A stretch of 45,839 nucleotides of DNA, taken from the NCBI GenBank assembly GCA_031278395.1, contig JAITKM010000014.1:1-45839 (forward strand), in the 5' to 3' direction. Numbering within the stretch: the first letter of the stretch is position 1; each line of letters opens with the position of its first letter. This document shows, one piece after another, positions 41,863-43,958 of this stretch. The DNA comes from Deltaproteobacteria bacterium (GTDB taxonomy: Bacteria > Bdellovibrionota_C > UBA2361 > SZUA-149 > JAITKM01). The position numbers and the translations under genes were made by a program. Below the pieces are notes generated by a model. The model made no database searches and was not told the DNA's origin. It saw only the letters and a program-made list of their open reading frames with translations.

Positions 41863-42185
41863 CTTTCTCAAAAAAGGGAGCTAAATGGTTAATTGTTGAT
41901 TCACCTAATTCACAATTTTCATTAGTTAGATGAAATAAGTTTGTTTTTCTAGTTTGGGGTTATTTTTTTTATAATTGTTCAACTATCCTAAATTAAATAG
42001 TTATCAATTTTCATTTTAAACTTTTAACTTGCTAATTTTAAAGCTAATTTTTTAAATTTCTATTTAAATTAATAACAAATAAAGAACTCCATGAAAAAAA
42101 ATTTATTTTGTGTATTGTCCGAAATATCGTATATAGCCAAGCTTAATTTTTACGAAATACCAATAAAATTACATTTAAATTTAAT
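41863..42185. other. 323-base intergenic region before lpxD-bamD
   Basis: Very AT-rich and without a coding frame or RNA gene that I recognise. It should contain the promoter of the lpxD-bamD frame; several -10-like stretches are present and I cannot choose among them. No repeat family from elsewhere in the window was seen here. Confidence 0.5.
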
Positions 42186-43958
42186 ATGATCTACAAATTA
42201 CAAGATATTGCCAATAAATTAAACGCTGAGCTAATTGGTGACGGGAACCTAACAATTACTGGAATTAATCCACTCCAGAGTGCTAGCGAGCAGGATTTAT
42301 CTTTCTTCTCACCCAAAACAGAAAAAAACACCAAAGACTTGCTCAAGATAGCAACTACTAAAACTATCGGAGCAGTTCTAGTTAAAAAATATATTCCTGA
42401 AATTAAATCACCACAAATTATTACAGCTAACCCACTACACGCTATCATTGGTCTGGCTAGTTTATTTCATAAAAAACCCCCTCAACCAACTGGCATACAT
42501 CCTTCAGCTATTATCCACGCAACAGCTAAACTTGGCACCAATGTTTCCGTCGGGGCCTTAGCGGTGATTGGCGAAAAGGTAGTGATTGGAGATAACACCA
42601 CAATTCACCCACACGTTGTGATTTACCCATTTGCCCAAATTGGTAATAACTGCGTTTTACATGCCTCATCTGTGATTCGCGAATATGTAAAACTTGGCAA
42701 CAATTGCCTAATTCAAAACGGCACTGTCATTGGTAGCGATGGCTTTGGTTATGTCCCAGATACACAAACTGGACACAAAAGATTAGTCCATATCGGAACA
42801 GTGGAACTTGAAGATTATGTTGACGTTGGCGCAAATACCACTATTGATAACGGCATGATTGGTAAAACTAAAATCGGCTTTGGTTCAAAGCTAGATAATT
42901 TAGTGCAGGTTGGACATAATGTGCAAATTGGCAAAGCTTGCCTCCTGTGTGCGCAAGTTGGTATTTCGGGCAGCTCTGTTATTGGAAATAATGTAGTTCT
43001 AGCTGGGCAAGTTGGAGTAGCTGATCATACAACAATTGGGGATAATACACGAGCTGGAGCGCAATCTGGTATCCCTAGCGATATTCCAGCTAATCTGGAT
43101 GTTATGGGTTATCCTGCAATCCCTGCCTCAAATTGGCGCCGAGTTCAAGTCATAATCAAAAAACTTCCAGAACTATTAAAGAGATTACATGAATTAGAAA
43201 AAAAGGTTTTGAAAACGCCTCTGATTATTTTTCTTATCGGACTAACAATTCTAACCGCTTGCTCTGGCAATACAGCTCAAAAAAAAGGGATTTTCACCAA
43301 ATCAATTTATACTGATGAACAAATCTTTGAATATGCCCAAAAGAGTTATGCTGATGAAGATTATAATATTGCTATCAATAACTATAACGAACTTTTAGAC
43401 AGTTACCCAACCAGCAAATTTGCTATTACTGCCGAGCTTAAAATTGCGGATGCTTATTTTCTTGATGAAAACTACTTAGAAGCTCAGTATGCTTACGAAC
43501 AATTTATTGCTAATCACCCTTGGAACTCAAACTTACCATATGTTCGTCATCGATTAGGCTTATGTTTTTTAAAACAATACAATGATGAATTGCGCGAACA
43601 ATTACCAATTCTCACGGCGTTAAAACATTTTCAAGAAGTTATCACTTTACATCCTGAATCCGAATATGCAGCTCAAAGCAGTATTGAGATTGAACATTGC
43701 CGCAACATGCTGGCAGACTATGAGCTGCAGGTGGCAAAGTTTTATCTCAAGCAAAACGAACGCACAGCGGCTTTAAAACGCTTATCTTATATTCAAAATT
43801 TTTATTCTGATACTCAAACGGTTTTGCTAGCTAAGCAACTTTTAGAGAAAAAGTTTACTCCTGAAGAAATAGAGGCAAGCCGGCAAGTATCAAATAAAAT
43901 TGTAAGAGATAAACTTCAAACCTTAATTCCAGCCGTCCCGACAGTTATTCAACAGTAG
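42186..43958 (+). CDS. Fused LpxD (lipid A acyltransferase) and BamD (outer-membrane assembly lipoprotein)
   Basis: One uninterrupted frame of 590 codons. Residues 1-341 are a complete LpxD: UDP-3-O-acyl-GlcN N-acyltransferase N-domain (LQDIANKLNAELIGDGN, DLSFFSP), a hexapeptide beta-helix with catalytic His in DNLVQVGHNVQIGK, and the closing helix RRVQVIIKKLPELLKRLHELEKKV. From residue 342 a lipoprotein follows: KTPLIIFLIGLTILTAC with lipobox Cys359, then BamD TPR repeats (DEQIFEYAQKSYADEDYNIAINNYNELL, NPYVRHRLGLCF-like segment, ITLHPESEYA). LpxD acts in the cytoplasm and BamD at the outer membrane, so a single product is hard to place. A TTG at 43209 could start BamD separately, but AAGG lies only 2 bases before it. 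Fusion, internal start, or a lost stop by mutation or assembly error are all possible. Confidence 0.87.
   Translation: MIYKLQDIANKLNAELIGDGNLTITGINPLQSASEQDLSFFSPKTEKNTKDLLKIATTKTIGAVLVKKYIPEIKSPQIITANPLHAIIGLASLFHKKPPQPTGIHPSAIIHATAKLGTNVSVGALAVIGEKVVIGDNTTIHPHVVIYPFAQIGNNCVLHASSVIREYVKLGNNCLIQNGTVIGSDGFGYVPDTQTGHKRLVHIGTVELEDYVDVGANTTIDNGMIGKTKIGFGSKLDNLVQVGHNVQIGKACLLCAQVGISGSSVIGNNVVLAGQVGVADHTTIGDNTRAGAQSGIPSDIPANLDVMGYPAIPASNWRRVQVIIKKLPELLKRLHELEKKVLKTPLIIFLIGLTILTACSGNTAQKKGIFTKSIYTDEQIFEYAQKSYADEDYNIAINNYNELLDSYPTSKFAITAELKIADAYFLDENYLEAQYAYEQFIANHPWNSNLPYVRHRLGLCFLKQYNDELREQLPILTALKHFQEVITLHPESEYAAQSSIEIEHCRNMLADYELQVAKFYLKQNERTAALKRLSYIQNFYSDTQTVLLAKQLLEKKFTPEEIEASRQVSNKIVRDKLQTLIPAVPTVIQQ

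Follow-up and report, generated by a model that had tools for sequence, protein, structure and literature searches.

LpxD and BamD are encoded in one continuous reading frame, possibly as a single precursor with an internal lipoprotein signal

In Bradyrhizobium, cytochrome b and cytochrome c1 are produced from one FbcH chain, with cleavage at an internal signal peptide. Escherichia coli requires both LpxD and BamD for viability, and the maturation of lipoproteins proceeds through the Lgt, LspA and Lol steps. The GeneTack study (PMC3711429) dealt with reading-frame transitions in gene pairs that overlap and are translationally coupled. Open-access papers (most subscription journals were outside this search) contained no described LpxD-BamD fusion, in agreement with the initial annotation, which knew of none, and no described case of an internal lipoprotein signal or of a natural BamD fusion.

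The window, which is the whole 45,839-nt stretch of DNA that was analyzed, corresponds to the entire contig C27 of a draft genome (1.71 Mb, 92% complete, 63 contigs, 34% G+C). The initial annotation had described a complete LpxD, ending with its usual C-terminal helix, that continues in frame into a complete BamD with its own signal and lipobox. Our results confirmed this description: the frame extends over 590 codons at 42186–43958 with no internal stop, TIGR01853 was matched from profile position 1 to 324 of 325, and the BamD part scored above the TIGR03302 cut-off and contained the lipobox LTAC with Cys359. In the ORF scan of the window, the fused gene was held by a single open frame of 603 codons from stop to stop. 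The features of the locus are as follows.

42186–43958, + strand: fused lpxD-bamD frame of 590 codons, from an ATG start to a TAG stop (0 internal stops)
42186–43208, + strand: LpxD part, residues 1–341, UDP-3-O-acylglucosamine N-acyltransferase (TIGR01853, 339.7 bits; NF002060, 357.3 bits)
43198–43204, + strand: seven-A run in the tail of LpxD (read from the sequence)
43209–43217, + strand: TTGAAAACG, putative scar of a 5-bp deletion (by comparison with the G003 junction GGGAAATGAAAACT)
43209–43259, + strand: internal BamD lipoprotein signal peptide, residues 342–358, LKTPLIIFLIGLTILTA (from sequence and hydrophobicity)
43260–43262, + strand: lipobox Cys359 (LTAC followed by SG, Ser at +2), predicted from sequence as the first residue of mature BamD
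43260–43955, + strand: mature BamD, TPR outer-membrane assembly lipoprotein (TIGR03302, 166.1 bits; PF13525 (YfiO), 112.9 bits)

The LpxD part was complete, with the N-terminal domain, the hexapeptide repeats and the C-terminal helix. Its TIGR01853 score of 339.7 bits, against a cut-off of 242.5, covered residues 7–333, and the NF002060 match covered residues 3–341 (profile positions 4–342 of 345). The catalytic-type histidine residues were retained as H244 in VGHNVQIG and H281 in ADH, both of which were invariant in alignment A1, and VGHNVQIG lined up with the same motif in the LpxD crystal structures 2iu8 and 6uec. The closest solved relatives were 2iu8, 3eh0 and 4ihf for LpxD and 2yhc, 3qky and 5d0o for BamD. 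Similar to other members of the LpxD family (TIGR01853/PRK00892), the LpxD of the window thus possessed the whole profile, the catalytic-type histidines and the usual C-terminal helix. Different from them, it had no stop past the helix, and the chain ran into a lipoprotein signal. The conserved IDR(G/A) motif of LpxD was also changed, from IDRG to IDNG (R to N at 222); this motif is found at 42846–42854 (LpxD residues 221–223), and the Arg was kept in all other members of the order in alignment A1.

The BamD part scored 166.1 bits against the TIGR03302 cut-off of 81.4, with residues 346–571 matched to profile positions 4–227 of 239. Similar to the BamD/YfiO family (TIGR03302), it possessed the whole profile, the TPR domain and a lipobox with Ser at +2. 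However, its signal peptide was internal, behind 341 LpxD residues, while that of the family is N-terminal; the signal and the LTAC lipobox of the window would be N-terminal only if TTG 43209 starts translation. The order across the join was ...LLKRLHELEKKV, then LKTPLIIFLIGLTILTA and then CSGN, and the window DNA around it (within 43150–43260) carried TTAGAAAAAAAGGTTTTGAAAACG. Codon 342 was TTG (43209–43211), the only in-frame ATG, GTG or TTG from codon 307 to the lipobox in the window, and codon 359 encoded the lipobox Cys. The internal signal had a clear hydrophobic core (Kyte-Doolittle mean of 2.85 for the best 12-residue stretch), a Lys ahead of the core and a standard lipobox. Given that two curated families were matched full-length in one frame and that lpxD was followed directly by bamD in 11 of the 15 genomes of the order, the frame is not a chance one. 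It is thus confirmed that the window carries full-length LpxD and BamD in one continuous frame.

No second LpxD was found in the genome of the window, where the next match to the fused protein was a weak hexapeptide-repeat one with 46% identity over 57 residues. One BamD over the cut-off was found in this genome, as in every genome of the order. Given that the sole LpxD and the sole over-cut-off BamD of a 92% complete genome are both in the fused gene, this gene must supply both functions if the cell needs them. Two proteins of different compartments must then come from one chain or be separated in some unusual way.

The sample of the order comprised 15 genomes from ten families, all multi-contig draft assemblies, in which the window was the sole member of its own family and genus. 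In the nine unfused adjacent pairs, bamD started at −14, −8, −4, −1, −1, −1, +12, +13 and +59 nt from the lpxD stop, i.e., within −14 to +13 nt in eight of them, and the start codon was always ATG. Such a layout suggests translationally coupled genes. In G012, lpxD and bamD were in the same frame with a TAG in between; in G003, the nearest relative of the window, they were separate with an ATGA overlap. Similar to the GeneTack pairs (PMC3711429), the relatives in the order had a stop and a start within about 14 nt, a distance at which the frames can be joined by a small indel. In contrast to the GeneTack pairs, the join here was in the genomic sequence, occurred in two lineages and affected genes with no further copies. 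The initial annotation had held that the fusion would be refuted by close relatives in which a stop separates the two genes. Such genes were found in G003 and eight other genomes, all from other families and with LpxD 43–54% identical to that of the window, which identifies the fusion as derived, not as false.

Outside the order, no other fused LpxD-BamD frame was found in the remaining 31 genomes of the class or among the matches listed for the wider sample of 388 genomes (three score-ranked candidates per genome). A scan of genome contigs with P0001 gave no match. At 80 LpxD loci of other phyla, found in a search with alignment A1, BamD was absent from the flanks examined and from the same frame. 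The long frames of G170 and G206 (1324 and 1399 codons, respectively) were considered as LpxD fusions and rejected as spurious, as they extended upstream of LpxD in DNA of 71–74% G+C. In the window, the fused gene was preceded by an A+T-rich intergenic region of 323 nt (41863–42185) and followed by a NUDIX-like gene. At the loci L002, L003, L007, L032, L035 and L037, bamD was followed by a same-strand gene starting MAVKLSREEQYGIMALVDLAYNL, which looks like an Rrf2-type regulator and is common at this position in genomes of the order, although not in the window. BamD of L003 (G006), L005 (G001) and L002 (G012) had a C-terminal extension of about 100–250 residues with no Pfam match, whereas BamD of the window had none.

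Comparison with G003 suggests how the fusion of the window may have arisen. The G003 junction, ...AAGTTTGGGAAATGAAAACT, ends LpxD as ...LEHKFGK and starts BamD as MKTL... with an ATGA overlap, and its counterpart in the window is ...AAGGTTTTGAAAACG. Addition of a second TGAAA unit in silico ended LpxD as ...LEKKVLK at 343 residues, a tail length equal to those of G003 and G012, and started BamD as MKTPLIIFLIGLTILTAC / MKTPLIIF..., the two again overlapping by ATGA. Loss of one 5-bp TGAAA unit from a putative TGAAATGAAA tandem would therefore have fused the genes, as it would remove the lpxD stop and the bamD ATG in one step and place both in one frame. The ancestral junction is here deduced from one relative, G003, whose LpxD is 54% identical. 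If this is correct, TTG 43209 would be an ordinary Leu codon of LpxD. An alternative single step would be the gain of one A in the seven-A run, in the absence of which LpxD would end as ...ELEKRF with a TGA overlapping the TTG. Such a step, however, would leave LpxD with a shorter tail, and bamD would have to start at a TTG, as it does in no relative. Loss of a short tandem unit would be a simple way for two translationally coupled genes to become fused.

The initial annotation had also suggested that related genomes be searched for the same fusion. It was found in G006, from another family of the order, as a frame of 754 codons (P0002; LpxD, 294 bits; BamD, 171 bits) that holds the sole LpxD and the sole over-cut-off BamD of that genome. 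In G006, the stretch between codon 307 (an ATG well inside LpxD) and the lipobox contained a single ATG, GTG or TTG, namely a TTG four residues ahead of the Cys. As a start at this position cannot make a signal peptide, BamD of G006 apparently lacks a normal start codon of its own. The lipobox was kept in both fusions, as LTAC in the window and TSAC in G006, and an LspA gene was found in both genomes. In the RpoB and GyrB tree, the window was sister to the unfused G003 (UFBoot 100), and G006 grouped with the unfused G002, G009 and G012 (support 98). One ancestral fusion for the window and G006 was considered and rejected, since the tree would then require several independent re-separations. 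Two separate events are thus the simpler reading, under which the G006 fusion evolved independently. Such a repeated origin suggests that the order tolerates or favours the joining of lpxD and bamD.

The best explanation for the locus, to which we assign a probability of about one half, is a derived in-frame fusion of formerly overlapping lpxD and bamD genes that gives rise to one precursor cut at Cys359. Most likely, one precursor would be translated and its LpxD part would fold and trimerise in the cytoplasm. The internal BamD signal peptide would then enter the Sec translocon, with LpxD staying on the cytoplasmic side. Cys359 would be lipidated by Lgt, and signal peptidase II (LspA) would cut before it. 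BamD would be released to the Lol pathway and reach the outer membrane, while LpxD would be left at the inner membrane with a short hydrophobic C-terminal tail. What was observed is the continuous frame with its two complete parts, the intact internal signal and lipobox, the sole copies, the LspA gene and a second independent fusion; the single translation product, its targeting, its cleavage, the fate of both products and the 5-bp deletion are deduced. Given that the G006 fusion has no usable internal start, the precursor route is favoured, and both fusions would be explained most economically by one precursor cut at the lipobox. A folded cytoplasmic domain of 341 residues ahead of a lipoprotein signal is, however, unusual and counts against such a precursor.

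The next explanation is internal initiation at TTG 43209 (MKTPLIIFLIGLTILTAC...), which would yield a normal BamD and an LpxD that is always attached to BamD, the attached copy being tolerated or degraded. TTG is an accepted start codon, and translation from it would give a signal peptide of normal length with Lys at position 2, KTP... being a normal-looking lipoprotein start. An AAAAAGG stretch is also found just upstream, but this Shine-Dalgarno-like (SD-like) sequence ends 1–2 nt before the TTG, which is too close. Several accepted genes of the window, the fused gene included, had no SD match, so the poor SD at TTG 43209 is not decisive. ATG, never TTG, starts bamD in all nine unfused relatives, and G006 has no corresponding start codon. 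Although the 1–14 nt overlaps of relatives suggest coupling, no stop is left in the window for reinitiation; as no ribosome stops at the join, the fusion removes the coupling, if bamD was normally started by it. LpxD would, moreover, still bear a membrane-targeted extension. Internal initiation is thus unlikely, although it retains some weight. Cleavage at Cys359 and a start at TTG 43209 were the two routes of expression named in the initial annotation; they remain the main options, of which cleavage is favoured by G006 and the TTG start is weak in its SD spacing and in the ATG starts of relatives. Two consequences that the initial annotation drew from cleavage, equal amounts of both proteins and a tie between lipid A synthesis and BAM assembly, are speculative.

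An error of sequencing or assembly, or a minority strain variant, would mean that the true genome has a stop and a start at the join, and this also has a low probability. Six A instead of seven at 43198–43204 (LpxD ending ...ELEKRF, TGA overlapping the TTG) or an unlost 5-bp unit would separate the genes, and either small change gives a 4-nt overlap as in G003. The genome is a draft assembly of 63 contigs, and many singleton frame transitions in genomes reflect errors of sequencing or recent indels (PMC3711429). However, the coding sequences of the window contained 48 A/T runs of at least seven, and the ORFs with other such runs were read through at gene-like length; by this measure, which judges ORFs by length, not family, a general homopolymer problem was not seen. 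The loss of 5 bp is not a typical error of short reads. Moreover, the same junction was fused in the independently assembled G006, where no usable start codon is present.

Recoding, either as RNA polymerase slippage on the seven-A run or as ribosomal frameshifting at A AAA AAG, would yield some LpxD ending near the join and is quite improbable. In the LpxD frame, A AAA AAG at 43198–43204 is a dnaX-type −1 heptamer, the seven-A run can slip in an A+T-rich genome (34% G+C), and a stop follows at once if one A is missing. A −1 ribosomal frameshift, however, was set aside, since it meets no nearby stop and adds about 30 foreign residues. No strong hairpin was found downstream of the seven-A run in the window, A/T runs are so common here (48 in 45.8 kb) that this run is not special, and the G006 join has no comparable run. 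Finally, LpxD and BamD could work as an uncut bifunctional protein, a single membrane-spanning chain that an uncleaved signal anchors in the inner membrane. Both parts are complete, but this reading is hardly credible: BamA, on which BamD acts, is at the outer membrane and beyond the reach of such an anchor, both fusions have kept the lipobox, and both genomes encode LspA.

If both proteins come from a single chain, a lipoprotein signal that follows a folded cytoplasmic enzyme of 341 residues must be acceptable to signal peptidase II, which, if true, bears directly on how late in a chain a lipoprotein signal can appear. More tentatively, and at somewhat less than even odds, a cytoplasmic lipid-A enzyme and an outer-membrane assembly lipoprotein would have been brought twice into one chain that is split by signal peptidase II at an internal lipobox, with LpxD tethered to the inner membrane and LPS synthesis and BAM assembly held at a fixed ratio. 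Similar to FbcH, the window has two proteins of one pathway in one chain with an internal signal peptide, at which cleavage occurs in FbcH and is proposed here. In FbcH, however, a membrane protein comes first and signal peptidase I makes the cut, whereas the first part in the window is a soluble cytoplasmic enzyme, and cleavage by signal peptidase II at a lipobox is predicted. This comparison implies no homology. By analogy with FbcH, the fusion is most likely a variant of the precursor with an internal signal peptide.
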